A stretch of 39,735 nt of DNA, from assembly GCA_025057395.1 (NCBI GenBank), contig JANWXU010000024.1, forward strand, positions 2,413 through 42,147. Direction: 5' to 3'. Shown one piece after another: positions 3,001 through 33,169 of the stretch; position 1 is the first letter of the stretch, and each line of letters opens with the position of its first letter. The translations under genes were made by a program, and so were the position numbers. The notes under the pieces are model-generated. The model was not told where the DNA came from. It did not search any database and worked only from the letters and a program-made list of their open reading frames with translations. This DNA comes from Bacteroidia bacterium. Lineage in GTDB: Bacteria > Bacteroidota > Bacteroidia > J057 > JANWXU01.

Positions 3001-3575
3001 AAATACTACTTGGACCATTAATATTTACTACCAAGTTGTTATTCACAGGGTTCACTATTAAAGAAGCACTGCCTGTACAAGAACCATCGGATACTACTAC
3101 CGTTAAGTTGGCAGGAGTAGCATTTGCCGGAAGGGTTATTGTGGGGTTAGATATATTATTAGCACTTAAGTAATTTACATTTGTGCCGCTCCAGGTATAA
3201 GTATAACCCGAAACATTAGGTAGCACTTGCAATTGCCGAGAAGCGCCACGACATAAATTAAAACTAGATACAGTTTGGTTATTAGCTTGGATGGATACGC
3301 TTAAGCTTTGAGCTACAGTTACCGTAGCATTTGCTGTTTTTACACAGTTATTTGCGTCTGTAACTGTCACAGTATAATTATATACCCCAGCAGTAGGTAA
3401 ATTTACTGTAATGCTGCTTCCTGTATTGCTACCCACAATACCTGGCCCACTCCAATTGTATACGTATGTTGGAATACCCTTACTTACCGTTGCAGAAAGC
3501 TGCGCGTTCGATCCTGTACAAGTAGAAGTACTAGGCACCGTTACCGTCATAAAATCACATACTGTAGCTGTTCGC
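1..3575 (-). repeat. PKD/SprB-like repeat array, period about 260 bp
   Basis: Plus-strand copies of the complement of a DAN[GSN]C codon block recur at about 375, 960, 1790, 2030, 2290, 2552, 2818 and 3345. Between 1790 and 2818 the spacing is 240-265 bp, equal to about 80-88 residues per repeat. The protein motif is Y.....VTDANGC followed by a V.V stretch. The left part (1-1700) has a related but distinct repeat type, with motifs such as LTGQAPFTVRYR and FTVTPT. The array continues past the left edge. Confidence 0.8.
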
Positions 3576-6500
3576 TTAGGCTTAATATTATCTTGGTAAC
3601 CATAAGTTTGTTCATTGTTTTCAATAAGTAACACATCATCGGGGATTACGGTACCGTTAAAGGCTTCTACGTTGTAGGGAGTAGGTCGTGTATTAGGAGT
3701 TTGGTCGTCTTCGTTACCAGCAAGCCATGGACTGTACACTACTTGAGTTGCACTTGCACCCAAAATCTGCTGCCTGGGCGTAGTTTGGCTACTAATAGGC
3801 GCATTCGGGTCAGGGTTCAAACGGGGTGTTCCATCCCCTCCTACAGGATTAGAAGCTACTTGTGGACCCGTAGCTACTCCCCACCAATTATTAGTTGCTT
3901 CTAAAGTACCACTACCCTCATGCCGAATACCACAACCCATTGTACCCGCATTGTAATTATTGTTGTGGAATAAATTTCTTTCTACCTTTAGCCCACTTGC
4001 GGAGCTTGCACTTTGTACTACTAGCCCATTTTGTAAATTATTACGCAAGATGTTACGAGCAATATTTACGTTGCTTGCGTTATTAGAAAAAAACGTAATT
4101 CCTCCCTGGTTAATAGCATTACCTGTATTATTATTCCACACTTCATTATAAGTGATATTCAAGTTAGCTAAGGGGCCACTATTACTCTGGGCAAAAATAC
4201 CACTTTGCGAATGATATAGAATTAAATTTCCATCCACCTCCACATTACTTACTCCATCCAAACGAATGGCTGTAGCCGAAGCCGAAGCGGGACTATTAGG
4301 ATTAAAAATAGCTACCGGATTACCATTTTGGTATACATAACGACGACCATCAAATACGTTATCAGTAATCGAGCCTTTTTTAACTCCCGTAAGGCTAAGC
4401 ATAATGCCACCTGGACTAAACGAACCACTTCGGAAACGGCAATCATCAATAATTATTTCTCCTGTGTGATTGGTAAAGTTAAAGTTAGTAAGAATAGCTG
4501 CCGAACCTCGATTATCAATAAGGCAGTTTTTAAGTACCACATTCGCAGAAGTACCTACAGCTTCAACCGCCCTATTAACACTCGCATTGATGGTAAAGCC
4601 ATTGATAGTTACATTAGCATTATCTCCAATAGTAATTGTATTACCTAAGAAATTTTGGTCAATTTGAGCTTCATTAATGTTATAAAAACCAAATTGATTA
4701 AGATCTACATTAATGGAGCGGTTGATATCAAATGGAGATACGTCCTTATACTTAATTGCATTGAGGGTCCATTGCGTATTAGCAGGAAAAGTAATGTTTT
4801 CTCGATACACTCCCGGATGTACCCAAACTCTATCTCCACTTTTTCCTAATTGAATGGCTTTGCTAATATAGCCAATCTCAAGCCCTAAGTTATTGCGAGG
4901 AATTAAGTTTTTAGCGGCTACGGTAGCGGGAGTACCCTGCGTAGATTGCCCTGGAATATTTTGTGGAGTATTTCCCCCATAAAGCTCGGCAACATACCAA
5001 TCTTTAGGAGCAGTAAGTTGTACACCAATAGTACCCAGGTCATCATCTGGCACGTTACTTCCTCCCAGCCAGGGCGAATAAGCTACAATCTTGTTAGTGG
5101 TGATAATCGATTGTCCTTGGGAAGCATTCCAAGGGTTAGTATTATTGGTCGTTTCAAAGGGACCTAAAGCGTCGCTTCCTCCCCACCAGTTACCCGTTGC
5201 ATCCAGTTGGTGCCCTGCTGCACCTCCCTGTAAAATTCGTAACCCCGCGTCATTTCCATTCAAAATATTGTAATTTATACGAATATTTCTCAAGATAGGA
5301 TCATTGGTATTACTCAGGATACAAGCAATACCTGAAATCTTGTTATTAGTAATAGAGTTATTTAGAATTTGCAAGGTAGTAGTAGCAGTATTATTCGAAA
5401 TATTAAAATATATTCCGCCATCATTAGCGCTGCTTTCTCGATTAGCATTGTCAATATTATTTTCTTGTATAGTAACAGTATTAATAGCCAAGTTAGTAGC
5501 ATCTTCAATATAAATTCCTGAGCGGCGCATATTGGTAATATTATTTCTATAAATGCTAAGGCTGTTGCCTCCTCGTACATAAATGCCGTTTTCTGTACCC
5601 GGAGTAGGAATTAAAGTAGCGGCTGCATCAAAATCAGTAATCAAATTATTTTCTATTCTTCCTCCAATTGGCCCATCAATTTCAATACGGTTTCCTCTTA
5701 CTCGAGTTAAAATATTATTCCTAATAAATGCAGTAAGAGCAGTAGTAGAATTAATACGAATACCTCGTTGAGAATAAGTACTAGCTAAAGTATTATTCTC
5801 TATTCGGTGGCTTACGCCACTAATTACCTCAATACACGTAGCTTGACTCAGTGCCGTAGAGCTTCCTACTTGCGAAATATTGTTGCTAGTTACAATAGCA
5901 GAGTCTATAGGCTCATTAGTTCCTGTGCCGCCTATGCGAATGCCAAACGCTGCACCGCTGTTTTCTAAAACATTATTAAGGGTATTACTTTCTACACGGG
6001 CACGTACTCCCCCCTGCGCCTGAAGAAGAGCAGCAGTGATAGTAGCTCCACTGTACTTAAATGCTGAGATCGAGTTATTCTTTACCTCGGGAAATCGTAT
6101 ACTTTTAACATGAATAGCTCCTCCATCACTCTGGCAATTAGTAATAGTATTTTCACTTATAAGAGTATTATCCACATTTCCTACTCCTCCAGGTATATCT
6201 TCCACAAAAATCAATGGGCGGGTATTATTATTAGCTGTTGTAATAGAACTGATAGCATTACGCTGAATAAAGCTATTAGGACTGCCATTTACGTATATGC
6301 AACCAAATGCTGTAGGTGTGGTTATCGAAACATTATTGAAACTATTATCTGTAATTTGAACACTAATATTATTATTAGGAGTTCCGGGAGTAACATTTAT
6401 AATACTCGTGTTAGCCGCAGGGTTAAAATCCACAAACTTATTATTCTGAACACTCACACTTTTACAATTTTGAATAGTAACACTTGCAAGGGCATTACCA

Positions 6501-7234
6501 CTACCCCCTCCCAAAAACTCATTTCCCGACACCGTAACATTTCCAATTACTACATCCTGTACGCTAAAAGGCTGGTGGTTAGCAGAAGTAACTCCTACCA
6601 CTCGGTTGTTTACATATTCAAAACTGGCAATATTTTGAAACTGGTTAGTAGAAGGTAAATTTCCTGTAAATATATTATTTCTGAGAACAATATTTGCGTT
6701 ATTATTTGCAGTCGTAATAGTAAAACCACTATTTTCAAAAGTAAAGCCTTCAAAGATGATAGTATTATTAGTTCCTACCGGGTTAGTGACAGTTTGCCCT
6801 ACTATACGGGCTTCTGAAAGTGAGTTAGGTACCCTCCCCGTAGTATTAGGATTTTGATTAAAGGTTTGAGCAGCACGGAAAATAAAGGTTTTATTAGTTG
6901 GCTGGTTACCGTTAAAAGCAAAATATCCTGTCCCTGTGCTGGCTAGATTAAAATTAGTATTATTATAGGTCCCCGGTTTTACCATTACAATTAGTCCAGA
7001 TAAGTGATAATTGGGTATAATAGGAAGCGAACCCGATTCTACTGCTTGCTGTAGAGTGCTGCACGGCTCTGCTTCCGTCCCTTTCCATGGACCTGGCCAA
7101 TCGTCATCTATCCAAACAACAGGTAGATTTTGGGCAGGCAAGGGTTGCCCAAACACAATCCAGAATGTAGCTACTAGCGCTATTAAAAAGTAAGTTTTCG
7201 AATACTTCCAATACTTTTGTAATATAGTACTCAT
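1..7234 (-). CDS. Giant secreted beta-helix / PKD-SprB-like repeat adhesin (C-terminus beyond left edge)
   Basis: Reading the minus strand from ATG at 7234, the frame stays open to base 2, giving 2411 visible codons and no stop. Residues 1-35 form a signal peptide (a hydrophobic run, then PLPAQN). Residues of about 60-690 and 740-1120 are two right-handed parallel beta-helix modules, rich in xNNxI and INxNxI rungs. Each opens with a PGxY motif (KPGTYNN; HPGVYREN) and ends with NWWG (about residues 680 and 1115), as in NosD/PbH1-type proteins. From residue about 1225 the chain is PKD/SprB-like repeats of about 85 residues marked by VTDANGC-type motifs. They then grade into Ig-like repeats with LPTATISG and QPF/PPF-type strands. 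The architecture fits a surface adhesin or gliding-type filament exported through Sec and T9SS. The expected C-terminal sorting domain lies outside the window, so that part is inference. A good promoter sits just upstream. Function and ligand are unknown. Confidence 0.93.
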   Translation of the reverse strand, partial: MSTILQKYWKYSKTYFLIALVATFWIVFGQPLPAQNLPVVWIDDDWPGPWKGTEAEPCSTLQQAVESGSLPIIPNYHLSGLIVMVKPGTYNNTNFNLASTGTGYFAFNGNQPTNKTFIFRAAQTFNQNPNTTGRVPNSLSEARIVGQTVTNPVGTNNTIIFEGFTFENSGFTITTANNNANIVLRNNIFTGNLPSTNQFQNIASFEYVNNRVVGVTSANHQPFSVQDVVIGNVTVSGNEFLGGGSGNALASVTIQNCKSVSVQNNKFVDFNPAANTSIINVTPGTPNNNISVQITDNSFNNVSITTPTAFGCIYVNGSPNSFIQRNAISSITTANNNTRPLIFVEDIPGGVGNVDNTLISENTITNCQSDGGAIHVKSIRFPEVKNNSISAFKYSGATITAALLQAQGGVRARVESNTLNNVLENSGAAFGIRIGGTGTNEPIDSAIVTSNNISQVGSSTALSQATCIEVISGVSHRIENNTLASTYSQRGIRINSTTALTAFIRNNILTRVRGNRIEIDGPIGGRIENNLITDFDAAATLIPTPGTENGIYVRGGNSLSIYRNNITNMRRSGIYIEDATNLAINTVTIQENNIDNANRESSANDGGIYFNISNNTATTTLQILNNSITNNKISGIACILSNTNDPILRNIRINYNILNGNDAGLRILQGGAAGHQLDATGNWWGGSDALGPFETTNNTNPWNASQGQSIITTNKIVAYSPWLGGSNVPDDDLGTIGVQLTAPKDWYVAELYGGNTPQNIPGQSTQGTPATVAAKNLIPRNNLGLEIGYISKAIQLGKSGDRVWVHPGVYRENITFPANTQWTLNAIKYKDVSPFDINRSINVDLNQFGFYNINEAQIDQNFLGNTITIGDNANVTINGFTINASVNRAVEAVGTSANVVLKNCLIDNRGSAAILTNFNFTNHTGEIIIDDCRFRSGSFSPGGIMLSLTGVKKGSITDNVFDGRRYVYQNGNPVAIFNPNSPASASATAIRLDGVSNVEVDGNLILYHSQSGIFAQSNSGPLANLNITYNEVWNNNTGNAINQGGITFFSNNASNVNIARNILRNNLQNGLVVQSASSASGLKVERNLFHNNNYNAGTMGCGIRHEGSGTLEATNNWWGVATGPQVASNPVGGDGTPRLNPDPNAPISSQTTPRQQILGASATQVVYSPWLAGNEDDQTPNTRPTPYNVEAFNGTVIPDDVLLIENNEQTYGYQDNIKPKRTATVCDFMTVTVPSTSTCTGSNAQLSATVSKGIPTYVYNWSGPGIVGSNTGSSITVNLPTAGVYNYTVTVTDANNCVKTANATVTVAQSLSVSIQANNQTVSSFNLCRGASRQLQVLPNVSGYTYTWSGTNVNYLSANNISNPTITLPANATPANLTVVVSDGSCTGSASLIVNPVNNNLVVNINGPSSICAGTTAQLTAIALGGATEYKYNWSSVPANGFLSNTTISNPTVNNPVAGSYSYTVNVTDANSCTASANFNLSVSSGVIVNAGADQTICQGDNTKSLAASISFGTAQTISWSCTPIIGLSFLSNTNTLNPAILNATPGSYTYRITVTDANNCSNTDEVVVNVVARPVVAFGGNISFCVGTSQQLTPTVTGGQQPYSYSWSATPPAATGFLNNVSAPNPTILNAPAGTYTYAANVTDANGCTANASIVVTVNALPTVVVDPNFIMCTQSSRQLNASIQGGGTASFVWSSNPAVGITFLSNTTIANPIINNPTAGSYVYTATATDVNGCTGSASVNVTVISSTLTISAGDDVTMCVGDSRQLTATVSGSIAQSFSWTPTTGLVGFNTATPTVSGLATGTYTYTASATDANGCTRSDEVVVRVVARPTASFGAAPAPVCAGTDVQLVVNLSGTPGFTVRYTEGGEVRSFTATSTPYTLTVRPNTTTIYSITEVTDAICTATGLNSIVTVPVRTLPTATISGDVKGCSPIQPATLTLNLTGQAPFTVRYRSGAGNPTVINNINTSPFNFTVTPTEAGRYTYTLIDVVDNTGCVSTQVSGEGRVSISPPTSVEFGGVASTQLVCQGEQALLLVDLIGTPPFSLTYTENNGSPVVVNNIQRSPFGLVVTPSAGGIRTFRITGGTDANGCALGSAQTTRSVNVLPATTASISGGVPASICGGQSSTITVNFTGIQPFFGTYRVNGGEEIPLNNGNPIFANTFTFTVTPTAQGNNTYTLGSVSSIYCGTGQISGTATVNVTGQGATATLSAPEQQITLGQTAELTVVLTGRGPWSFQYREANNNPITVSNINGTSPFTYRLVVTPTAVGDRTYILVSVTDANNCGAGQVSGSATVRVLPAPCPNSGFPITATEGCGDVRLSTAFVGSEFSYQWLRAGNTVGTSQTLTATQSGTYELRLSKAGCATAISSINVTVIPAPTATVQVTNETQPGANDGRFIVSVTPAGSYIYN
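3860..7060 (-). repeat. Two tandem right-handed beta-helix modules within the giant adhesin
   Basis: This is the coding DNA for two beta-helix blocks. Module 1 is at about 5160-7060 and module 2 at about 3860-5010. Both are dominated by short asparagine-rich rungs and both finish with an NWWG segment followed by a GP.......NP stretch, then a SPWLxG motif (about 5060 and 3725). The shared order of landmarks suggests an ancient module duplication. The rungs have drifted too far for DNA-level repeats to be visible. Confidence 0.75.
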
Positions 7235-14241: not shown

Positions 14242-15123
14242 ATGGCAAAATACTCTTTATGGAAAATAGCTCTGAGTTTTAAAGTATTCCTGCTAACAAT
14301 TCTATCAATTCTATCCTACCCTTCTTTTGCGCAAAACAAACTAAAAGAAAAAGTTGCTTGGAAAGAACGAATATATTACCGTATTTTCCGCAACCCTACC
14401 TTTCTAGATAGTGTACAGCACCTAGATCTGAGCTTGCAACAACTATACAATCTAGACACGCTAATAAAACATTGTAAGCAATTACGAACGCTCAATATTA
14501 GCGATAATAATATTCGACAATTAGTGAGCTTGCCCTACGATTCTAAACTACAGGCTCTTTGGGCACAAAATAATCTAATTAATCATTTTGACCCTTTTAT
14601 ATGCAACCTAAACCACCTACAGGAGTTAAACTTAGCTAATAACAAACTATCTTATTTACCCGAATGCCTTTGTAATTTACAAAATTTACGTATTCTTAAT
14701 TTAAGTCACAATCCCTTAGAGCAATTATGCAGCTGTTTCCCAGGATATGCTCCACTTATTAGTATAGAACTTGCCAATTGTCAACTTCGAAGTGTTCCTA
14801 ATCTACTGTTCTGCAACCCTAAGTTAGAAAAGCTAAATCTTTCTGGTAACTTTTTACAAAGCCTTCCTGATACAACCGCACCTCTACCCGCACTAAAAGA
14901 ATTAAATTTGAGCCGTAATTATCTACAGCAAGTTCCTAGCATAATTCGACGATTGGTGCATTTACAAGTTCTCAATCTAAGCTACAATAAGCTTATTGAC
15001 TTTTCTGCCCTAGTAAAGTTGCCCCAATTAAAAGTAGTTATCTTAAAAGGCAACCCCCTAATTACGAAAAGCCAAAAAAAAGAAATACGCTCTAAGTTAC
15101 CGGGCGTAAAAATTATATTTTAG
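14242..15123 (+). CDS. Secreted leucine-rich-repeat protein
   Basis: A 293-residue exported protein. Residues 1-31 are a signal peptide ending FAQN. Residues of about 55-290 are LRRs of about 22-24 residues with the LxxLxLxxNxL pattern, for example LRTLNISDNNI, LQELNLANNKL, LRILNLSHNPL, LEKLNLSGNFL, LKELNLSRNYL and LQVLNLSYNKL. That makes about ten repeats forming a curved binding surface. There is no T9SS sorting domain and no lipobox Cys after the signal peptide, so it is probably periplasmic. It follows aroC closely and may be cotranscribed, but no functional link is evident. The ligand is unknown. Confidence 0.85.
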   Translation: MAKYSLWKIALSFKVFLLTILSILSYPSFAQNKLKEKVAWKERIYYRIFRNPTFLDSVQHLDLSLQQLYNLDTLIKHCKQLRTLNISDNNIRQLVSLPYDSKLQALWAQNNLINHFDPFICNLNHLQELNLANNKLSYLPECLCNLQNLRILNLSHNPLEQLCSCFPGYAPLISIELANCQLRSVPNLLFCNPKLEKLNLSGNFLQSLPDTTAPLPALKELNLSRNYLQQVPSIIRRLVHLQVLNLSYNKLIDFSALVKLPQLKVVILKGNPLITKSQKKEIRSKLPGVKIIF

Positions 15124-15246: not shown

Positions 15247-18200
15247 ATGCTGGCTGCCAAAGAGCCCCTTCTAAGTATTCGCTTTGCCCGCATTGAGTTT
15301 ATTCATTATGATAGTAGCGTACATGTAGAGGGCGAAAATTTTACTTACAGTCGAAAAAAAGAAAACTACGCCTGGCCAATTTCTCAAACAGCCATAATAG
15401 GAGCTAGTAACCGGCTAGGAATTGTTGAATTTGATCCCTCCAAGCAAGGCATAAATACTCCGTGCCTTACTGCTCTAGTAGCTTATCAATACCAAAAGTT
15501 TTTTGAATACTTGCAAGGTGATTTAGAAGAAATCACTTTGGTAACCAATAACCGTCCGGAATTTGATACTATCATTGCTTGCTATTTAGTATACTTCTAT
15601 AAAAAAAACGGATGTTTACCTAAAAATGTTGATGTTTTAGCAGATTATGTTTATGACGTAGTTACAGGTAAAGTAGCCGTGGATATTGAAAATCCACAAA
15701 CCCTACATATCTATATCTTAGGAATTCGCTATGTACTTTTAGAAGAGCGGCTGCCCGAAAAAGCAAAAAATATTGCATATTTCGAGCGTTGTTTCCTCCT
15801 TTTAGACCAACTTATTCTACGCTTAGAAGCAGGTATTTCGCCTCGCTCTACTGAATTTCTTGAAGATATTCAATTTTTTGAGCATACACGCGAGTTTATT
15901 TTGCGCGATAGCGAAAACTATAAACAAGACTTAAAAAATAGCCGACGCTCCATTGTTTGGTTAGAAAATAAAAACACGGGTCGCTTACACCAAGTAGACA
16001 TCCTTGCCACAGAAGACCCCAAGAGCATTCTCTGGAAACACTGGACGCGTGGAAGCCGCATCGAAACTAAAACCCAGGAGGGTATTTTAGCAACTTGTGA
16101 ATTTTATACTACCAACAACGGAAGGACAAGAGCAATTATACGAACAGATGCCCAATCTCCTTACTGGTTACGCGGCCTTAGTATCTTATTAGATTACTAC
16201 GAAATTCAAAAACTATTAGAAACTTACTCCCAAGAAGCTCTTCTAGAAGAACCTATTAAACAAGGTTATTGCCGTAGTACACCATGGCTAGATGGAAGGG
16301 AAAAAAATGACTTCACTATAGTAGAATCTCCGCGCCCAGGCTCCGTGCTTAGTGTGAATGAAATATGGAGCTGCATTCGTAAATACGAGCTATGGCAATA
16401 CTTGGGCCGCCAAAAAGTGTTATACACTAGTTTTGATGCCCTAAAAGGACAGATTATTCCCGATATTCCTCCCTCTCAAAAAGAAGTTGAGCAAATATTA
16501 GAAATCATTGCAAGCTCCCAGAAAGCCAACCCTAAAAAAGCTTTTGCCAAACTCGAAGATATTAGCATGGGGCTAATGGCAATGGAGATAAAAAGCGATA
16601 AAATGGAAGAAGAAAGAACTAACTTACGCAACCAAATACTACAAGCGCTTATACAATACTATAATCAATTACCCGCTACCATAGACCCCACCAACTCTGC
16701 AGTAGTTATTACTATTTTAATAAATAATTATTTTCCTCCTAGTTATTTAGAAAAATGGTTTTGCCAAACCAGAGATCTGGCTCCTGACGCCCTTCGTGAA
16801 GGAATAGAGCCCCTAATTAGTCGTACCCAAGAAAATAGAATTATTCCCCTGATGCTTATTTTACAAGATAGACACCCCAGAGGAATTAACGTATTACTTG
16901 CCCAGCGAGCTAATTCAGAATATCAAAAATATGCCCATGTTAGTATTGCCACTGAGCTATTACACTGGCTTCATGTTCTCTTTACAAGGGACTCTATCTG
17001 CGAAGATTTACCTATCTATACTTTTAATCGTCTTAAAAATTACTTAGATGATTGTTTAGTTTGTGCTTGCCTTAGTACCCAAAACGAAATTGACCCTGAG
17101 CTAGCTCATTTTATTGCTAATGATTTTAAGCATTTTATCGAACAATCCGCTATTCAACCCATCTGGCACCCAGATTACCTCACTGGTGAATATCCAGAAT
17201 TTCGCAAGTTGTACCAAAGATTAGTACAAAAATATCTAATACAATATGAATTTGGAGAGAATTTACCCAAGTTTCGATGGGCAAGGGCTATAATCCTAAA
17301 TACTGCTTATGGCCAGCAGCTAGAGCAGTATAATCTTCAAGACCCTGAATCATATTCTGCTATGAGTTTTGAAGAAACTTACTTAATGCAGAAGCGCTTT
17401 CTTAATACACTGGGGAAACTATTAAAAGAAGAGTTTGGCAACCCTGATATTCAGTTAGCTACCTCAATTTTACTAAACAGGGTCAATTTACTTTTTGCCA
17501 TTAAAGCATTTGAAAATTTAGCAGAACGCATCGATTTAGTATTTCGACTATGTTACCTAGAAAAGCTTCCTGTGGGGCAATGGTACTTTAATTATCACCC
17601 CGATCTGATGCTATTTCAGCAATTTACCATACATCTATTTAGCGCTACTATTCAATTTATGAATTCAAGTGACCCACAAGGCTACTTACAAAATTTGAAC
17701 GACTCTTTGGATATTCTCAATGAATTAAAAGTCACACCCGCCTCTACACCCAATATCAACTTACAGCCAACCTTAAACTTATTATACCGTTTTGTTAGCA
17801 ACCTAGTTAAGGAACATGATATTCCTTTTAACCAAATCGATAGACAAATTGAAAGCGCTTTTAACCAGTTCAACCTATTAACAGCCTCTGATGGTTTACT
17901 TTCTACCACTCAAGCCTTGCCTCTCTTTTATAAAACAGTTTTAAAAGAAATTTTTCTATCTTATAAAAGGCATTATACGGAAAAAATTAAATTTTTACAG
18001 TCTAAAATCAAAAGCGTAACAGATGTAAGTCACTTAGGAGGAAAAAATGAAGAAGAATTTATTGCACTCAGTAATTATCTTTTTAACCAAACTATCTATT
18101 TTGATTGGCAAGCTCTCAAAGGTAATGTAGACACTTTTATAGTTTCCCAAGCCCCCGAAAATAAAAATAGACTATCTCGCCTTTTTTACCGGCGTTATTT

Positions 18201-19329
18201 TTACTGGCAACAGCTAAGTTATTATAATCTTCCGCATTTGCTTGTTTTTAATTCCTCTATTCGTTCAGCTATAGGACGCTTTACTACTTTAGATAAAATT
18301 ATTGAATCTATCCCCGAACCAGAAGATTTTGCAGGTTTTCCTGCCCATCGTTCCATTTTGTTTGAAAACCGTAGCTTAAATGCAGCTATCAATCATTTTC
18401 CTGAATGGTACCACCTCGATGCTTATGACTACTTAAGCGATCATTTCTTAGAAAAGTTTGACATTAGTAGCGTACAACGATCTATTGAAAATTTTTCCGC
18501 ACGCCTGCCCGCTTATTATAAAATTATGACCCACAAACGCTATTTAAGCATGCTCACCCTAGGTATTGCGACTTTATTACTACTTATTGGGTGCTTTGAC
18601 CCTAATGAGTACGAGGTAGGTGGAATAAAAATGCGCCCTACTGTTGCACAATTCTTTTGGAATTTTCTAGGACAACGTACTTATTACGTTATATCCAAGT
18701 TAATCACTACTCTCTGGGGCCTCCTTATTTGTACTATATATATTCTACCACTCGCCTTCATTGTGTACTACCTAATTCGTCTTCCTACTACTTTGCAAAG
18801 AAAGCAAAATATTACCCTTAATTACATGCAAATGCTAGAAAAAATTGAAGGCAAAAAGTCGCGCTTGCTTTACCTACAGTTTATTACCCCCTTATTACTC
18901 ATGATTTTACAAATTGCTAACCCCGATGCAATGAATATGATTACTAATATTAAGGGTATTTCTTTTATTACTATTATGTTTGTCTTGGTAGGCCTAGTAT
19001 ACACTACTCTTTATAATGATATTTCTAAAGTAAATCCTAACCGATCCAAAGATTGGTTAACGGGTCGAGTTTGGCACATGTTTTGGCTCTATTCGCTACA
19101 AGCAATTATACTCACTTTTATTACCACAGAAGTTTTAGTAAGGCTGGATAGCAAGCCCACTTTTACTTATAACACTCTTGATGATCTAGAATTATTAGGC
19201 ATGGCCAAAACAGTATACTACCAATTTTTCTGGGGGATCGAAGTAGCTATTATGCCGGTGATAACACTTATTATGACTATGATTTCCCTTTATTTTAGCT
19301 TTTTCTTAAATAAAGTAGTCGGCAAGTAA
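15247..19329 (+). CDS. 1360-residue protein: degenerate DHH-like N-terminus, helical middle, six membrane segments
   Basis: I cannot name a characterised homologue. The N-terminal 390 residues have a layout reminiscent of DHH-type phosphoesterase-like proteins: VTNNRPEFDTIIACYLV (about residue 98), then LADYVYDVVTGK, IVWLENKN, SPYWLRGLS and STPWLDGREKNDFTIVESPRPGS. The His expected in an active DHH site is Asn, so catalysis is doubtful. Residues of about 400-1090 are mostly helical with no clear motif. Six hydrophobic segments follow, near residues 1099-1115, 1150-1175, 1210-1225, 1238-1258, 1280-1297 and 1330-1355. The N-terminus has no signal peptide, so the large domain is probably cytoplasmic and tethered by the C-terminal membrane bundle. 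It lies between the LRR gene and ftsY with gaps over 100 bases on each side, so it is probably its own unit. Confidence 0.85.
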   Translation: MLAAKEPLLSIRFARIEFIHYDSSVHVEGENFTYSRKKENYAWPISQTAIIGASNRLGIVEFDPSKQGINTPCLTALVAYQYQKFFEYLQGDLEEITLVTNNRPEFDTIIACYLVYFYKKNGCLPKNVDVLADYVYDVVTGKVAVDIENPQTLHIYILGIRYVLLEERLPEKAKNIAYFERCFLLLDQLILRLEAGISPRSTEFLEDIQFFEHTREFILRDSENYKQDLKNSRRSIVWLENKNTGRLHQVDILATEDPKSILWKHWTRGSRIETKTQEGILATCEFYTTNNGRTRAIIRTDAQSPYWLRGLSILLDYYEIQKLLETYSQEALLEEPIKQGYCRSTPWLDGREKNDFTIVESPRPGSVLSVNEIWSCIRKYELWQYLGRQKVLYTSFDALKGQIIPDIPPSQKEVEQILEIIASSQKANPKKAFAKLEDISMGLMAMEIKSDKMEEERTNLRNQILQALIQYYNQLPATIDPTNSAVVITILINNYFPPSYLEKWFCQTRDLAPDALREGIEPLISRTQENRIIPLMLILQDRHPRGINVLLAQRANSEYQKYAHVSIATELLHWLHVLFTRDSICEDLPIYTFNRLKNYLDDCLVCACLSTQNEIDPELAHFIANDFKHFIEQSAIQPIWHPDYLTGEYPEFRKLYQRLVQKYLIQYEFGENLPKFRWARAIILNTAYGQQLEQYNLQDPESYSAMSFEETYLMQKRFLNTLGKLLKEEFGNPDIQLATSILLNRVNLLFAIKAFENLAERIDLVFRLCYLEKLPVGQWYFNYHPDLMLFQQFTIHLFSATIQFMNSSDPQGYLQNLNDSLDILNELKVTPASTPNINLQPTLNLLYRFVSNLVKEHDIPFNQIDRQIESAFNQFNLLTASDGLLSTTQALPLFYKTVLKEIFLSYKRHYTEKIKFLQSKIKSVTDVSHLGGKNEEEFIALSNYLFNQTIYFDWQALKGNVDTFIVSQAPENKNRLSRLFYRRYFYWQQLSYYNLPHLLVFNSSIRSAIGRFTTLDKIIESIPEPEDFAGFPAHRSILFENRSLNAAINHFPEWYHLDAYDYLSDHFLEKFDISSVQRSIENFSARLPAYYKIMTHKRYLSMLTLGIATLLLLIGCFDPNEYEVGGIKMRPTVAQFFWNFLGQRTYYVISKLITTLWGLLICTIYILPLAFIVYYLIRLPTTLQRKQNITLNYMQMLEKIEGKKSRLLYLQFITPLLLMILQIANPDAMNMITNIKGISFITIMFVLVGLVYTTLYNDISKVNPNRSKDWLTGRVWHMFWLYSLQAIILTFITTEVLVRLDSKPTFTYNTLDDLELLGMAKTVYYQFFWGIEVAIMPVITLIMTMISLYFSFFLNKVVGK

Positions 19330-23372: not shown

Positions 23373-23990
23373 TTATCTTACTGGCTTAAAGTGCCCATCA
23401 TCCAAATAAGGTTTAATTCCTGGTTTTACAATTTCTTCCGAATGCAATAATTTTATAATTTCTAGATTAATAGAAATTCCCCAATCTCCCCCTTCAAAAG
23501 AGCATATAAAAGTGTAATCGGCAATATGAAAATTAAATTCACTTTCTAGCCGATGCTTATTAAAGTATTTAATAACACTATCTTCAAACTCAATCTTATA
23601 ACTGTAATAATCGGGCTCATAAAAATAGAGTCGATTCATTAAATTAAACAATTCCGTTACATAAGTATTCATATCTGTGTGGTCTACTACCTTAGGAGCT
23701 ATAGAAAGACGAAGTTTAGTATGGTGCCTTAAACAAGCTTTTTGAGTAATCGTAACGTAGCGTCCTGGTGTAAGCAGGGCTTGCTCGGTCTTAGTATTAT
23801 CATCAAAAGTATGATTAAAAAAGAAAGGATTAGTAGGAGAAATAATAGGGCACAGTGCTTCTTTTTCCATGCGGCAGGGTTTATCTTTATGCTCCTTCTG
23901 ATAGACTCGAATTTCTTGTCCTTTTATAGTAGTTATAGCGGTGAAACAAAAAATTACTGCAGTACCTAAGAACCTAGATAGAATCATCAT
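23373..23990 (-). CDS. Small secreted protein of unknown function
   Basis: I do not recognise this 205-residue protein. Residues 1-24 are a signal peptide (LGTAVIFCFTAITTIKG, cleavage near GQE). The mature part has Cys39, Cys47 and further Cys residues, a proline- and phenylalanine-rich stretch (PTNPFFFNHTFDD), YVTITQKACLRHHTKL and a hydrophobic ICSFEGGDWGISINLEI strand. There is no T9SS sorting domain and no lipobox. Its first 17 bases overlap the 3' end of thiD, which indicates translational coupling or a shared transcript, although a thiamine kinase and an exported protein have no obvious connection. It converges on batA with an 18-base gap. Confidence 0.75.
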   Translation of the reverse strand: MMILSRFLGTAVIFCFTAITTIKGQEIRVYQKEHKDKPCRMEKEALCPIISPTNPFFFNHTFDDNTKTEQALLTPGRYVTITQKACLRHHTKLRLSIAPKVVDHTDMNTYVTELFNLMNRLYFYEPDYYSYKIEFEDSVIKYFNKHRLESEFNFHIADYTFICSFEGGDWGISINLEIIKLLHSEEIVKPGIKPYLDDGHFKPVR

Positions 23991-25033: not shown

Positions 25034-28000
25034 TTACTTCATTCTTACTAAGCGCAATTTTTGAACCTGAGTAGCTGTTTCTAAAACCACTTGATAAATC
25101 CCTTCAGGTAAATCTCCTAAAGAGATAGTACCCTCTTTAGATAGAATGCCCTTTTTCACTACACTTCCGCAATTGTCCCAAAAAGTATATTTAATTGGGT
25201 ATGTTCCTATGCCATTATTATCATTCCACTCAACCCATACTTGCTCACGAGCAGGATTAGGATAAAAAAATACCGAAGTAATTACTTCTGCTTCAGGGCC
25301 AGCTTTCCTATCACAAGTTCGTACTTCTACTAAAAAGGTAGCTTCCTGAGAAGTACAACCATTTTGAATAATTACCAATGAATATATGCCACTATTTTGA
25401 GTAGTAATATTTGGGATTAATGGAGTGACATTACTACTAGTAAAACCAGCGGGTCCACTCCAAAAATATTGAATGCCCGGCAAAGAAGCTGTCGATGGAG
25501 TAAGGTGTAAGGTAGTACCTGCGCAGGGAGAATTACTAGAACTAGAAATTTTAGGTTTATCAGGCGCAGGTCTTACTACTACTTGCAAGGGCGGTGAAAG
25601 CGTAGTACAGCTATTAGTCCAAACTTGTAAACGATAAACGCCGGTATGTAGGGTACTTGTATTAGCAATTATCGGGTTTTGAAGTGTACTATTGAAGTTA
25701 TTGGGCCCACTCCATTGGTAATGTAACCCGGCTATCGGAATAGTAGGCGCAGTAAGGCGAAGTGCTTGCCCTACACAAATTGGCGAGTTACTACTAATTT
25801 CGGGTACAGGAGGCTTAGGATTTACTACAACAGATACATTTGCTGCCTCCGAAGTACAACCTTCTAGAATAGCAACAGCGGTGTACTGCCCACTCGAAGT
25901 AGTGGTTGCATCAAAAATACGGGGAGCACTTTGAGTGCTCTGAAAGCCATTTGGCCCGGTCCAATAAAAAGCTACACGACTTTCTCGACTAGAAGCAGTA
26001 AGCAAAATTGCTTCTCCACTGCAAATTGGAGAATTAGAACGCACTTGCGACGCTGTAGGGAGCTGTTTTATAACTACATTTACTGCTTGTGCCTGACTAG
26101 TACAAGCGCCATTAATAGCTACTACTTCATATACACCTGCATTAGAAGAAACAACATTTGGAATTACGGGCATTCTTTGTGTACTGCGAAAGCCATTAGG
26201 TCCGTACCAAACATAGCTAGTTGCTTCACGAGCATCTACTACTAAGTTTAGAGTCTCGCCTTGGCAAAGGGGAGAATTACTTTGAACCGAAATTAGCTCA
26301 GGGGGCAAATCTGGTAGCACATTTACTACTGCTGCTGTAGAAGTACAGCCTCCAGCCATTGCAACTACACTGTACATTCCTCTTTGGTTTAAGTTTCTGG
26401 GCAATACACTCACACAAGCCCCACTCGCTTCAAAACCTGCTGGACCCCTCCAAAGATATTGCACCTGAGCTATACGACCCTGTACACATAAATTTATCAT
26501 AGAACCTAGGCAGGTACGAGGAATATCGGCTATTAGAGGGGATGCAGGGGCTGCAACAACATCTACCACAAAATTAGTTGGCTTGCTCGTACAACCATTT
26601 TGAATAGCTACAACACTGTAATTTCCAGCTTGTAAACTAGAAACATTCGTTAATTCAATAAAGTGCTTTGTAGATACAGCTCCACTTGGCCCCTGCCAGT
26701 AATAGTTCACTCCTACCTCTTGACGAACCGCTAAACTAAAGCTTGTACCCTCACAGTACCTCCTATGGCTCTCTCCTATAATAGTAGGGGTCAAAGGTAG
26801 CTCAAAAATCTCTATCCACGTCCTAGCAAATTGGCTCGTACAGCCCTTGGAAATAGCATAAGCCTGATACTCTCCTTTATTTTGTAGTGTCACATTAGGT
26901 ATTAGAAATTCTCTTCCTGCTCCGATAAGATTACTTCCATATTCCCAAATTACTTCAGCATCCCAAGGATTAGTTATCGCTGTGAGGCGCAGCGTTTGTC
27001 CTGTACAAATAGGAACGTTTGAAAACAAAGTAGGCGGATCTGGAAGAGGATGCACTACCACCGCAATCGACCTTTTAGCAGAATAACAATATCCATCAAA
27101 ACTTGAAACATAATAAAGCCCACTATGTTCTGGAGTTACATTAGGTAAATTTACAATAGCTAAAGTACTAGCAAAACCATTAGGACCTTGCCAACGAACA
27201 GCCCGAGGATGAGGCGCTGGTATACTCAAAACTAGAGTTTGGCCTGCACAGATAACAGTAGCATTGGCCATAGGAACAACAGGCTCTGGCAACCTACGTA
27301 CATTCACAGAAACTAGAGCAGGCAATGAAGTACAGCCGTTATAGGTAGCTACTACTGAATAGCCTCCACCAAGAGTTGCAGCTGAAGCAATTCGCTGCAT
27401 AGTAGTGGAGGTTACACTAAAATTTTGCGGACCTGCCCAAACATACTGCCAATTATGGATAGGATTCAAGATTGCGAGCTCGATAGTATCACCTAGGCAG
27501 TAGGTAGTCCTTCCATAGATACTAGGTGGCTGCGGTTTGGGTACCCATTGAAGGTTAATAGTTTGTGTTACCGAGGTGCAGCCTCTAGCTGTTCCATATA
27601 CTTTAATCGAATGTAAATTACTTGCTACAGAATAAGGTAGTACTAAACTATTTCCACTATGCGTAGTAGACCCTATTTCCCAGATATACTCAGTATTAGA
27701 TTCGGGAGCAAATATTTCTAGCTTAAGGTCCTGATCTTGGCATAGAGTAGTTGTTCCAATTACAGAAGGGCGCTGCGGCTGAGGTAATACCGTTACACTA
27801 ATGCTAGCTACAGAACTCGTACAATTACCAATTATATAAGAAACACTATATACTCCTGCATCTGCTTGTGTTATATCAGAACGTAAAAGGGTAGAAGAAG
27901 AGGTTATAAAAGTTTCTCCTGCTGGTGTTTTCCAGATATAAGTAGCCCCCGAAATGGGAGTAGCTTCCAGCATAAAAGAACTTCCCTGGCAGCGACTACC

Positions 28001-31000
28001 TCTTACTAATAAACTTAGGTCATGCGGTGCTTTTAGCAGTTCTACTTGAGTAAATGCTGTATCAGAATAACACCCTTGTGGAGAAATTGCCACCACCCTA
28101 TACTTTCCCCCTACATTAGGGGTAACTACTCTAACATGCTGTGCCCCCTGGGCATGCCAAGCATCAGGCCCTATCCAATAATAGCGCATAGAATCTACAG
28201 GATTGAGTACAAAGAGCTCTAAATTTGAAGGGTTTTGTGCGCCTAAGCAAAGCGGAGAATTACTCGTTATTTGAGGTGTAAGGGGTTTAGGATAAACTTG
28301 TACCCATACCCTACCTACTTGCGAAGTACATCCTTGAGCCACTACACGTACCGTATAATACCCCGTGTGATGTAATTCAGCTCTAGGCACGCCAGGAAAA
28401 GGATGAGGCTCGTGATAAAATCCAGCTGGTCCTTCCCAGATAAAACGTGCACCATCAGGATAACTAGGATAATTCAAAACCGAAAGGTTAATTTCATTAC
28501 CCTGGCATAAAGGTACTTCTTGCTTAAAAATATGATAGTAAGTAACAACGGGTGTGGTAGGAAGAGGATTAACTCTAACTACCTGGCTCCTTGCCTCAGA
28601 GGTGCAATTAAAACTATTAATGATCCTTAGTGAATAAGTATAATTGCCTGCTGAATGAGCTACCCATTTATATGAACTACTGGTGGTATCAAGTAAAAAG
28701 CCATTAGGCCCCTGCCATAAGAATCTATGTCCAGCTTGAAAATTGCTATTGGCTGCAAGCAACACGGTATCTCCTTGGCAATATTGCCGAGCAACACTAA
28801 AATTCGAAGCTGAAGGCACAGGTAAAATAGTTACCCTTACTGGGGAGCGAGAAGAACCACACTGGGCTTGAATATTATAATTTTCTAACCAAAAGGTGGT
28901 AGTTATAGAAAGATTAGAAGAAGCAAGAGATGGAGCTGTAAATACATAAGGCGCCTGATTCACAATTTGATAAGGTTGATTATTATTATAAGTAAATAGA
29001 CGTAAACTTTGTAGGTCTGTACCTGTGATGGTAAAAGTTACACTTCCACTACCACAACGTGATAACTCTAAAGAAGGTGGCGGAGGAGGAGGTAAAACTA
29101 CTTGAATCGCTAAACTATGAGTATCGGCACAATACGCAGAACTTACAATAAGCTCAACCGTCCGAACCCCAGGCGTAGACCAACCTATCCAAAATGGACC
29201 TGCGGTGGTATGATTAATGCTTTCACCTGAGTTTAGTTTCCACGAGTAACTAAAATTAGGAAACGATATAATATTTCTCAAAGTAATTGAGTCATTAATA
29301 CAAAGTATAGCACGAGAAGCTATAATTTGTGCCTTTGGAACAGGATGAACAGTTACTCCCCGTTCTACCACTCGGCTAGTACAGCCGTAACTACTAATAG
29401 CATACGCCGAAATAGTAAAATTACCTACATTCACTCCTTGGAGTACATGCGGACCTGCACCTATAATATTAGAAGGAACTAAGCCAGAGGAGGGAGTAAT
29501 ATTCCATATGTAAGCATGAGTAGGATTTTGTAGTTGCGAAGGAATAGTTAGAGTTACTTGCTGAGCTTGACAAAAATCACTTTTGCTAACCTGAAAATCA
29601 AATTCGGGTATAGGATAAATAGTGAAAACTACATGCTTAGGTTCTGCCGTACAGTTATTATCTGTAATGTTTAAATTCAAGCGATATTTTCCTGCTGTTA
29701 AGTTTTGTATGGAATAGGGACCTCGGTGCGTAGATTGGGCTATTTCTTCTACAGGCAGGGGTTCTAAACGCTCAAGTTTCCACAAGAAATTAGCATTAGG
29801 CCCTGCTATTCCAACATGCGAAACAAGCTGCAGCCTATTTTGACAAAAGCTTTCAGAGACAGTACTCAGCGTAGCATTCGGTGTTTGCAAAACTGTAACT
29901 ACTCTGGTAGCATATTCACTAGTACAGCCATTTGCTACCCCTCGTAAGCGAACTGTTTTAGTACCTATTGTTTGCCAGCTCAGCGAAATAGGATTCTGTG
30001 AAACTGGAAAAGCACCTGTAGAAAAATCACTTACTTCCCAAAGATAAGCCTGAAGAGTTATATCACTTTGGCTTTTTACTTCTACTACTTGTTGAGTACA
30101 GACTCTTTCAGGCGCATCAATTGTTACCTGCGGACGAGGCTTTATTAATACAGTTTGCGTATATTGAGGTAAAGAACAACCATTATTATCTACAACAAGG
30201 CTAACAGTAACCACGCCTGCCAATTGAGTAGGAAGCCTATGCGGACCAGGCGAATTAGTCCAATTTTGAGCCTGCCCATTTGGTAAAGTAACCTGCCATT
30301 GAAATTGCCAACCGGATTGATAAGTTCCAGGGTAGTTAACATTTCGAATTTCATGTTGGCAAATCTGTTGCTCCCCCCCTATAGAAAACTGGTTATTAGG
30401 ATAGGCATATACTGTAACAATACTCCTTCGCTCTAAAGAACATCCATTTTGAATAGCTAACAATGAAATGGTTCGAATTCCTGGTGTATTCCAAGTAATT
30501 TGAAAAGTATTATTATCAATAGGTTGTGGAGTAGCTCCCTCTGAAATATTCCAAACTCTTTGAGCTGTTGGGGGCATCAGATTTAGCACCTGAAATTGAA
30601 AATTCTTTCCGCCACACGTAGTCCCAGCTTCAGGAGTCAGTTGGAAACTTGGCATTTGATTCACTACCCAAGTTTTAGTTATTACATTACTAGAACAGTT
30701 ACTAGGGCTAGTCACTACCAAAGTTAGTTCATAGGTTCCGGCTTCTTCTAGAACTTTAGTATAAGGACCGGGCCCTTTCCAATCGTTGGGTAGAGAGATA
30801 CTTACTCCCTCACGCTTTAATTGCCAATGGTAAGTACTAAGTGTACCTGAGAGTACAGCCCTTAGGTTTAACCAATCGCCAGTGCACTTAGGAGTAGCTA
30901 CCTGCTCAATAATTTCTGCTATTGGCGTAGGAGTTACTTCTATATTTGCAGTGATTACAGTACTCGAACAATTTCCTACAGTGGCTACCAGACGCAAGGT

Positions 31001-33169
31001 TTTAGTACCAGGCGTTGACCAACTTATTTGAAACACATTGTTTCCAATACTTGTAGGGGATACTCCATCGGAAGCCTGCCAAACTAATTGCGCTTGTGGT
31101 GGACTAAGGCCCGCTACTGTCATTGTCAAGGGTTGACCTGTACAAGCTACTGGCGGCGTCATCGGAAATTGAAGACTCAAACTAGGAACAGGATCTACTT
31201 TCCAGTTTATTGGACCTACCTTTGCCTGACATCCTCCTGGCGTAGTAACTTCTAAACTGGCTTCATAATTTCCAGGAGATAAACTTTGCAAATTATGCGC
31301 ACCCCGTCCACTCCAAGTTGTACTTATATTTAATATTTGACCCTCCCTTTTCACTTCCCACTTATATGTAGAGCCTGCTACTCCAGCATCGTTAGCAGAT
31401 AACTGCAAATTTCCTCCGCTACACTGCGGTAGTTGCTGTATAGCCAAGGAAGCTGTTGGCAAAGCTAATACTTCCACAGTTTGAGTAGTAAAGGCACTAG
31501 TACACCTGCTTGTAAATGCTCGCAGCCTAATAGTTTTTACTCCTGGGGTACTCCAGCTAACTACATATACACCGGGACTTTGCTGCTGGGGAACCACCCC
31601 ATCAGTATTATTCCAAAATAGCTGAGCATTACTAGGAGACAAAGTATTGACAGTAATAACTAAATTAGCTCCTGCACAAATAGGCTGACTATTACCTGAA
31701 AACTGAAGATTAAAACTAGGAATAGGATCCACTTGCCAAGTTTGAGTAATAGAAGTGGATTTACAATCAGCTTCCGCCTCGAAATAAAGTTGATAAGTAC
31801 CAGGCTGAGTTAGTACAACTGAATGTAAACCTTGCCCTTGCCAACTAGGAGGTAAAGCTACAGCTTGCCCGTCTCTTTGTAGATACCACTTATAAGTAGC
31901 GTTTGCTACGCCGGCTTCATTAGCACGTACTCTTAAGGTTTCACCAGCACAAGTTGTTTTTTCAAAAATACTAAAGGTAGCCGTAGGCCTAGGACTGATA
32001 GTTACCACCTGTGAAACAAAAGCCGATGTACATTGGGGAGCAGAAGTAAAGGCTCGGAAGCGTATTGTTTTGGTACCAGTTGTATTCCAGCTTATAGTAA
32101 AAGGTGCCGTAGAAGGATTACTCGGAGTAGCAATACCACCTCCTAATTGCCAAATGTATTGAGTGTTAGGAGGATTACCTGATACCTGCGGAGTTACAGA
32201 AATTCCTTGATCAACGCAAGCAGTAAGAGCCCCCAAGGTAAAATTGGCTTCCGGCATTGGTGCAATATTTATCGTTGCGGTGCAAGTTTCTGGTGTGTTA
32301 CTATAAGGAGTTTTATCAATATGCAAGGTAACTGTTTTAGGACCAGGCGTATTCCAAATTACAAAATAAGGGGTTACAAAAGGAAAATCAGGCTTATCAG
32401 TAGCTTTCCAAGTGTAATTGTATTGAGGAATTTTTCTTCCTGTGAAGAATACCTTAACGCTTTGACCTGTACAATAGGTTCGAAGATTAACGGAATCAAT
32501 AGCAATTTCACAAATGGGAACTAAAGGTATTTTGCAACCAATATTTTTGTATGAAACTGTGCCGTTAGGTTCAAAAAAAGCAGCATCTCCATCTCCTAAT
32601 TTCGATAGATCGTTAGGCACATAAGAAACCTCGTCTTCACAATTTGTAGATTTTTGTCTGATTTCTAAATTCCTGGGATTACTAGGATTATTTGCGTTAT
32701 AGTTAGCAAAATGTCCATTAGTATTGCCTGGACATTGGAAAACTACATACACTTCATCACATAAGTTGCTAAAGTCATGAGAGCCCACCTTGTAATTTAC
32801 ACTAGTAATAATTAGCACTCTAGCACCTGCGGGTAAAACTCCATTGGTAGGTTCAATAAGTTTACCTGTTGGGCAGGTAATAGTTTGGTTGATTTGCTGC
32901 ACCTTTTGAGCCGTAGTTGAATTTTGACAAAAGTTAAGCCAGGGATTTCCCGCATTCGGCCACTTAATTTCAAAATCATTAGTATTAATCGGATTAGGTC
33001 CAATGCGCAGATATACCATTTCATTCTCTCCCTCTGGGAGGTCGCAAGCATCTACAAGAATACTCTCGATTTCGAAACACTTAGAAGAAAGTGGCTGCGC
33101 TGCAAGCTTTTGCAAGAATAAAAATTTTATGTAAAAAATTATTATAAGCCCAATAACTACTCTTTTCAT
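25034..33169 (-). CDS. Giant T9SS-exported adhesin with 28 Ig/PKD-like repeats
   Basis: This protein has 2711 residues. Residues 1-24 are a signal peptide (GLIIIFYIKFLFL, then AAQP). Residues 30-225 are a conserved-looking N-terminal domain (CFEIESILVDACDLPEGENEM, GVLPAGARVLIITS, FSNLCDEVYVVFQCPGNTNGHF). It resembles in style the N-termini of other large Bacteroidota surface proteins and may be lamin-tail-like. Residues of about 226-2615 are 28 repeats of 80-90 residues, each with a Cys after about 12 residues, a central W, and a closing NGCTS-type Cys motif before VxVxP. The last 90 residues are a T9SS type A sorting domain (FFYPNPAREQVWVEW, LPEGIYQVVLET). The two Cys per repeat could form one disulfide each. 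It is inferred to be a long extracellular fibre; its ligand is unknown. Confidence 0.95.
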   Translation of the reverse strand: MKRVVIGLIIIFYIKFLFLQKLAAQPLSSKCFEIESILVDACDLPEGENEMVYLRIGPNPINTNDFEIKWPNAGNPWLNFCQNSTTAQKVQQINQTITCPTGKLIEPTNGVLPAGARVLIITSVNYKVGSHDFSNLCDEVYVVFQCPGNTNGHFANYNANNPSNPRNLEIRQKSTNCEDEVSYVPNDLSKLGDGDAAFFEPNGTVSYKNIGCKIPLVPICEIAIDSVNLRTYCTGQSVKVFFTGRKIPQYNYTWKATDKPDFPFVTPYFVIWNTPGPKTVTLHIDKTPYSNTPETCTATINIAPMPEANFTLGALTACVDQGISVTPQVSGNPPNTQYIWQLGGGIATPSNPSTAPFTISWNTTGTKTIRFRAFTSAPQCTSAFVSQVVTISPRPTATFSIFEKTTCAGETLRVRANEAGVANATYKWYLQRDGQAVALPPSWQGQGLHSVVLTQPGTYQLYFEAEADCKSTSITQTWQVDPIPSFNLQFSGNSQPICAGANLVITVNTLSPSNAQLFWNNTDGVVPQQQSPGVYVVSWSTPGVKTIRLRAFTSRCTSAFTTQTVEVLALPTASLAIQQLPQCSGGNLQLSANDAGVAGSTYKWEVKREGQILNISTTWSGRGAHNLQSLSPGNYEASLEVTTPGGCQAKVGPINWKVDPVPSLSLQFPMTPPVACTGQPLTMTVAGLSPPQAQLVWQASDGVSPTSIGNNVFQISWSTPGTKTLRLVATVGNCSSTVITANIEVTPTPIAEIIEQVATPKCTGDWLNLRAVLSGTLSTYHWQLKREGVSISLPNDWKGPGPYTKVLEEAGTYELTLVVTSPSNCSSNVITKTWVVNQMPSFQLTPEAGTTCGGKNFQFQVLNLMPPTAQRVWNISEGATPQPIDNNTFQITWNTPGIRTISLLAIQNGCSLERRSIVTVYAYPNNQFSIGGEQQICQHEIRNVNYPGTYQSGWQFQWQVTLPNGQAQNWTNSPGPHRLPTQLAGVVTVSLVVDNNGCSLPQYTQTVLIKPRPQVTIDAPERVCTQQVVEVKSQSDITLQAYLWEVSDFSTGAFPVSQNPISLSWQTIGTKTVRLRGVANGCTSEYATRVVTVLQTPNATLSTVSESFCQNRLQLVSHVGIAGPNANFLWKLERLEPLPVEEIAQSTHRGPYSIQNLTAGKYRLNLNITDNNCTAEPKHVVFTIYPIPEFDFQVSKSDFCQAQQVTLTIPSQLQNPTHAYIWNITPSSGLVPSNIIGAGPHVLQGVNVGNFTISAYAISSYGCTSRVVERGVTVHPVPKAQIIASRAILCINDSITLRNIISFPNFSYSWKLNSGESINHTTAGPFWIGWSTPGVRTVELIVSSAYCADTHSLAIQVVLPPPPPPSLELSRCGSGSVTFTITGTDLQSLRLFTYNNNQPYQIVNQAPYVFTAPSLASSNLSITTTFWLENYNIQAQCGSSRSPVRVTILPVPSASNFSVARQYCQGDTVLLAANSNFQAGHRFLWQGPNGFLLDTTSSSYKWVAHSAGNYTYSLRIINSFNCTSEARSQVVRVNPLPTTPVVTYYHIFKQEVPLCQGNEINLSVLNYPSYPDGARFIWEGPAGFYHEPHPFPGVPRAELHHTGYYTVRVVAQGCTSQVGRVWVQVYPKPLTPQITSNSPLCLGAQNPSNLELFVLNPVDSMRYYWIGPDAWHAQGAQHVRVVTPNVGGKYRVVAISPQGCYSDTAFTQVELLKAPHDLSLLVRGSRCQGSSFMLEATPISGATYIWKTPAGETFITSSSTLLRSDITQADAGVYSVSYIIGNCTSSVASISVTVLPQPQRPSVIGTTTLCQDQDLKLEIFAPESNTEYIWEIGSTTHSGNSLVLPYSVASNLHSIKVYGTARGCTSVTQTINLQWVPKPQPPSIYGRTTYCLGDTIELAILNPIHNWQYVWAGPQNFSVTSTTMQRIASAATLGGGYSVVATYNGCTSLPALVSVNVRRLPEPVVPMANATVICAGQTLVLSIPAPHPRAVRWQGPNGFASTLAIVNLPNVTPEHSGLYYVSSFDGYCYSAKRSIAVVVHPLPDPPTLFSNVPICTGQTLRLTAITNPWDAEVIWEYGSNLIGAGREFLIPNVTLQNKGEYQAYAISKGCTSQFARTWIEIFELPLTPTIIGESHRRYCEGTSFSLAVRQEVGVNYYWQGPSGAVSTKHFIELTNVSSLQAGNYSVVAIQNGCTSKPTNFVVDVVAAPASPLIADIPRTCLGSMINLCVQGRIAQVQYLWRGPAGFEASGACVSVLPRNLNQRGMYSVVAMAGGCTSTAAVVNVLPDLPPELISVQSNSPLCQGETLNLVVDAREATSYVWYGPNGFRSTQRMPVIPNVVSSNAGVYEVVAINGACTSQAQAVNVVIKQLPTASQVRSNSPICSGEAILLTASSRESRVAFYWTGPNGFQSTQSAPRIFDATTTSSGQYTAVAILEGCTSEAANVSVVVNPKPPVPEISSNSPICVGQALRLTAPTIPIAGLHYQWSGPNNFNSTLQNPIIANTSTLHTGVYRLQVWTNSCTTLSPPLQVVVRPAPDKPKISSSSNSPCAGTTLHLTPSTASLPGIQYFWSGPAGFTSSNVTPLIPNITTQNSGIYSLVIIQNGCTSQEATFLVEVRTCDRKAGPEAEVITSVFFYPNPAREQVWVEWNDNNGIGTYPIKYTFWDNCGSVVKKGILSKEGTISLGDLPEGIYQVVLETATQVQKLRLVRMK
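25320..32515 (-). repeat. 28 tandem Ig/PKD-like repeats, two classes
   Basis: Counting by the closing P-P boundary (for example VTVLP QP or VSVVVNP KP) gives 28 units of about 255 bp. Repeats 3-12 (N-terminal half) mostly alternate between two kinds, one with YKW..KREG plus W.G.G and one with SWSTPGVKTIRL. Together these give a roughly 175-residue dimeric period. Repeats 15-28 are mostly the single type SNSPIC.G..L.L....YYWxGPNGF.ST....SGxYxVVAxxNGCTS. Confidence 0.85.

Follow-up and report, generated by a model that had tools for sequence, protein, structure and literature searches.

What might a 1360-residue protein do if, taken whole, it has no significant match in Pfam, NCBIfam, or PADLOC and no sequence match in the PDB? 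The protein in question (P0001) is encoded at 15247-19329 on the forward strand of the window, by which we mean the whole stretch of 39,735 nucleotides from a Bacteroidia bacterium that we analyzed. Its reading frame is real and intact: it starts with ATG and contains no internal stops, an open frame this long has a probability of ~3e-40 by chance at the local base composition, and its GC3 (0.318) lies inside the range of the neighboring genes. The initial annotation described an apparently inactive DHH-like head, a long helical region, and a six-helix membrane tail, and it suggested a membrane-tethered sensor of nucleotides or polyphosphate.

Full-length relatives of P0001 were not found. Searches with the whole protein against the order (22 genomes), the class (395 genomes), plasmids, phages, and species-genome contigs gave no credible relatives; the GTDB family of the source genome has a single representative among the genomes searched, which is the source genome itself; and the full-length build was seen in that one genome only. 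A search with the N-terminal part in 395 genomes of the phylum gave matches with E values of 0.001-0.04, which we dismissed as chance (the two that we inspected were ABC transporters), and viral scans turned up no relatives. All of the N-terminal motifs quoted in the initial annotation are present, and because one of these, PWLDGR..DFTIVESPR, resembles a signature, we scanned 85,000 species genomes for DNA that encodes DGR-x(n)-(F/Y)T(I/V)V(D/E)xPR. Four of the six matches are in long frames, with motifs in the same order as in P0001 across ~400 residues. These true relatives are from a delta-proteobacterium (L015), Oceanirhabdus (L017), Verrucomicrobiales (L018), and Clostridia (L019); the other two matches (L016 and L020) were due to chance.

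We aligned the four relatives with P0001 and used the resulting profile for a wider search. It identified members in 7 of 237 genomes from the phylum of L015 (counting the starting genome), in 2 of 196 genomes from the class of L017 (one of them a weak match), and in 1 of 195 genomes from the phylum of L018, which was the starting genome. The initial annotation had pointed to other Bacteroidota as a place to look, and these did not help: among 395 genomes from the phylum, 22 from the order, and 80 further genomes from the class, only P0001's own genome had a credible member. The head family is rare and patchy in its distribution. A profile of 11 relatives, with P0001 excluded, matches P0001 at 144 bits (E = 1.2e-42), as compared to 10.7 bits for the best of 5,000 shuffled sequences. 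So the head of P0001 is the same domain as in the relatives, even though they are just 19-24% identical. The head also finds relatives directly by blastp. Given the profile score and the fold matches described below, we assign residues 1-375 (15247-16371, forward strand) to a DHH-like head family with the PWxDGR signature. This family has no entry in Pfam or NCBIfam, and a literature search found no description of it. Querying PDB sequences with the profile of the family gave nothing beyond chance matches, such as designed helical proteins.

Most of the relatives contain (L/V)D(V/A)G(N/G)...PG(V/I)(I/F)DxH, and then HxxPDxD about 40-80 residues on. The initial annotation saw the order of motifs that is found in DHH-type proteins. 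We agree that the motifs are DHH-like, but DxH precedes HxxPDxD, whereas ordinary DHH proteins have them the other way round, and the PWxDGR/TIVxSPR module is specific to this family rather than standard for DHH. The reversed order suggests circular permutation, that is, that the head family is a circularly permuted DHH. MYG1/UPF0160-type DHH proteins have DVGG..DHH after the His/Asp motif; compared by motif text alone, the head family has a similar DVGG...DHH-style motif, but the order is reversed. Comparison to the Pfam family for DHH (PF01368), which had been proposed as a check, gave a mixed outcome: P0001 has no match at the gathering score, but within the head family, 4 of 12 members match below the threshold (best E = 8.5e-4). 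The L017 match covers just positions 3-48, the beginning of the Pfam model, and falls on the HxxPDxD motif, which fits the permuted order.

In P0001, four of the six putative metal-site residues are replaced. By alignment to the relatives, the DVGN...DxH motif (residues 48-67, within TAIIGASNRLGIVEFDPSKQ; 15388-15447, forward strand) has lost D52 (to Gly) and H65 (to Ser) and has kept D63, and the HxxPDxD motif (residues 98-112; 15538-15582, forward strand) has lost H101 (to Asn) and D105 (to Glu) and has kept D107. N101 aligns with His in 10 of the 11 relatives, so the initial annotation was right that a key His is Asn. Two of the relatives that are fused to a cyclase, L040 and L042, also lack D52, H65, and D105, and L042 lacks H101 as well. 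Coupled loss of these two distant motifs within single proteins is expected if they form a joint site, and we take it as support for one. Our best reading is that the head of P0001 is catalytically dead. Alternatively, the head might still be an enzyme, in which D63, D107, and E105 support an altered metal site or some other chemistry. Two invariant aspartates and a conservative change from Asp to Glu do remain, but both of the putative His ligands and D52 are missing, and such a loss normally abolishes DHH activity, so we consider this very improbable. The D/H/H triple mutant of NrN, a DHH phosphodiesterase, is inactive (PMC10600005).

The C-terminal part of the head has fared better. P0001 retains a conserved LRGLxxxLxxxE segment (residues 305-320; 16159-16206, forward strand), as seen in the alignment, and the signature PWxDGRx(n)(F/Y)TIVxSPRxGSxL (residues 345-368; 16279-16350, forward strand), as seen in both the motif scan and the alignment. 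In a post hoc comparison, 25 of 36 conserved positions are kept at residues 239-372 versus 5 of 15 at residues 18-107 (Fisher p = 0.028).

Another proposed check was a fold search. We modeled the head of P0001 with AlphaFold, using an alignment that was five sequences deep, and the model is of moderate confidence (pLDDT 64, pTM 0.69). The first 14 PDB matches from Foldseek are all DHH phosphodiesterases (E values from 2.7e-3), including PAP phosphatase, TM1595, Rv2837c/NrnA, DhhP, and GdpP. On the other hand, the TM-scores are only ~0.2, which could be explained by the permutation, a domain hinge, or error in the model. Also, a model for L019, a relative with intact motifs, had a pLDDT of 56, and Foldseek gave no DHH match and nothing useful for it. 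A search of viral folds (BFVD) with the P0001 model placed exopolyphosphatase/DHH proteins among the best matches (E values from 9e-5, best probability 1.00). The fold search is supportive of a DHH-like head, but not conclusive. Along with the intact motifs of the relatives and the sub-threshold Pfam matches, it supports the view that the head is DHH-like and inactive. Among solved structures, the predicted head is closest to the DHH-DHHA1 proteins GdpP, DhhP, and NrnA, and the relatives carry DHH-type metal-site motifs. The head family differs from these proteins in its motif order, an extra helical insert, and the absence of a Pfam-level match, and P0001 lacks the site.

What does the head act on? 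The middle of P0001 (residues 376-1097; 16372-18537, forward strand) is ~700 residues with no recognizable domain, no internal repeat, and no match to a Pfam family. Hydropathy analysis found six segments after residue 1097, the same number of membrane segments as in the initial annotation: residues 1098-1120 (18538-18606), 1149-1180 (18691-18786), 1206-1226 (18862-18924), 1232-1257 (18940-19017), 1278-1298 (19078-19140), and 1327-1355 (19225-19311), all on the forward strand. The fifth is the weakest: it passes a cutoff of 1.5 and fails at 1.6. The predicted inside loops have somewhat more Lys and Arg than the outside loops do, which weakly favors a cytosolic N-terminus and head. The tail has no CorA-like match in PADLOC or Pfam, and phmmer found no relation between the C-terminal 965 residues and the relatives' tails or partner proteins. 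Judging from these comparisons, the middle and the tail are orphans among the sequences searched.

The relatives' heads are joined to more familiar domains. All five of the relatives with membrane tails (L030, L038, L039, L041, and L043) match CorA-like models from PADLOC, with E values across the five of 6.7e-21, 5.9e-9, 1.9e-6, 2.9e-5, and 9.9e-5. In three others (L037, L040, and L042), a class III cyclase is fused N-terminal to the head. Oceanirhabdus has a separate gene for a class III cyclase (L043:6034-6651), 1.3 kb upstream of its head-CorA gene, which mirrors these fusions. In L015, a Ser/Thr kinase is fused after the head. CorA-like tails, cyclases, and a kinase look like the company of second-messenger signaling. 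So a membrane-tethered nucleotide sensor is plausible, but the polyphosphate alternative has no specific support. Also, in three relatives, the head gene adjoins a gene for a large protein of ~765-1090 residues (L015:970-3816, L038:9322-12585, and L041:8936-11230); these partners are homologous to each other and have no match in Pfam. In Oceanirhabdus, a second, short, stop-containing piece of the head domain lies downstream of the first (L043:12586-12801, L027) and is perhaps a decayed duplicate.

Some of these proteins match models of defense systems. The CorA-like tails do so in PADLOC, the cyclase-fused relatives match PADLOC's models of Pycsar cyclases, and residues 786-938 of the large partner in L038 match a PADLOC candidate, PDC-S11 (E = 3e-30). 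P0001 might then be a defense effector in which an infection signal at the head leads the membrane part to kill or arrest the infected cell, as with NrN-CorA. We think that this is very unlikely. P0001 itself has no match in PADLOC, its tail is not CorA-like, and its locus is not a defense island. No cas genes are beside it; the genes in the window are for housekeeping or adhesins. Furthermore, the matches to Pycsar cyclases may merely reflect the general class III fold. We saw no link of the head family to CRISPR, with the relatives checked through a few scanned neighbors only.

Among known systems, degenerate phosphodiesterase domains (GGDEF/EAL) serve as receptors for a membrane output in LapD-type proteins. 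These domains are unrelated to the head of P0001, but the working idea is similar: a dead nucleotide-cleaving domain is reused as a receptor. The initial annotation knew of no characterized protein with this build, which holds only with a qualification. NrN is beside or fused with CorA and degrades SAM-AMP, and NrN-CorA fusions and NrN/CorA pairs are known from type III-B CRISPR loci (PMC10600005). NrN with CorA is a close functional parallel to the head-CorA relatives, which likewise combine a DHH-like domain with a CorA-like membrane tail (L030, L038, L039, L041, and L043). Nevertheless, the head family looks distinct, with its reversed motif order and its PWxDGR/TIVxSPR module, and P0001 differs further: its sequence points to inactivity, its six-helix tail does not resemble CorA, and we saw no CRISPR link.

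The gene for P0001 is flanked by the gene for an LRR protein and by ftsY, in a housekeeping neighborhood (chorismate synthase, FtsY), and no signaling gene adjoins it in the window. These surroundings, the length of the middle region, and the loss of the metal site would also suit a head that serves as a scaffold, structural or protein-binding, in which a dead DHH fold docks a partner as part of envelope biology without sensing any ligand. We regard a scaffold as unlikely, given that the PWxDGR/TIVxSPR module, which may face the ligand, was preferentially retained.

We favor instead the idea that P0001 is a receptor, given the homology of the head, the loss of the metal site, the retention of the C-terminal module, the fold matches, and the signaling partners of the relatives. 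P0001 is probably a nucleotide receptor that has lost catalysis. Its head would be a cytosolic, dead member of an uncurated family of DHH-like phosphodiesterases. The retained C-terminal module would bind, but not cleave, a phosphorylated small molecule, which is probably a nucleotide that serves as a second messenger. Binding would be relayed via the ~700-residue middle to the membrane module, which would open or change state on the head's signal. P0001 would then be the receptor-only counterpart of the relatives that have intact heads on CorA-like tails. As to the general form of this proposal, in which the dead DHH-like head binds a phosphorylated small molecule uncut and controls the membrane module, as a receptor or an effector, it seems to us an even call. 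We lean somewhat against, but take seriously, the broader idea that the motif-permuted family is a second-messenger module across distant phyla, acting as an eraser if intact or as a receptor if dead, joined to channels, cyclases, or a kinase, with P0001 as a receptor-only form with a new six-helix output. If true, this would expose a head family through which the cleavage or sensing of nucleotides is coupled to membrane tails, cyclases, and a kinase; P0001, as a natural dead version, would be a test case for DHH domains as nucleotide receptors; and the DHH-CorA theme of type III CRISPR would reach beyond the CRISPR setting.

We also note some other genes in the window. The LRR protein gene (14242-15123, forward strand) is on the same strand as the P0001 gene and ~123 bases upstream of it; beyond adjacency and shared strand, we found no evidence that the two are linked. 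The gene at 25034-33169 (reverse strand) encodes a giant, type IX-secreted, adhesin-like protein of 2711 residues, in which CHU_C-associated Ig-like domains (PF19081) are repeated and a secretion-sorting tail (PF18962) is present. A 2411-residue open frame (2-7234, reverse strand) extends past the edge of the window; by eye, it has an N-terminus that resembles a parallel beta-helix, followed by PKD/Ig-like repeats, and because this frame occupies the region, other open reading frames are missing there. Finally, a 205-residue protein with no match in Pfam is encoded at 23373-23990 (reverse strand), where it overlaps the end of the gene for phosphomethylpyrimidine kinase.
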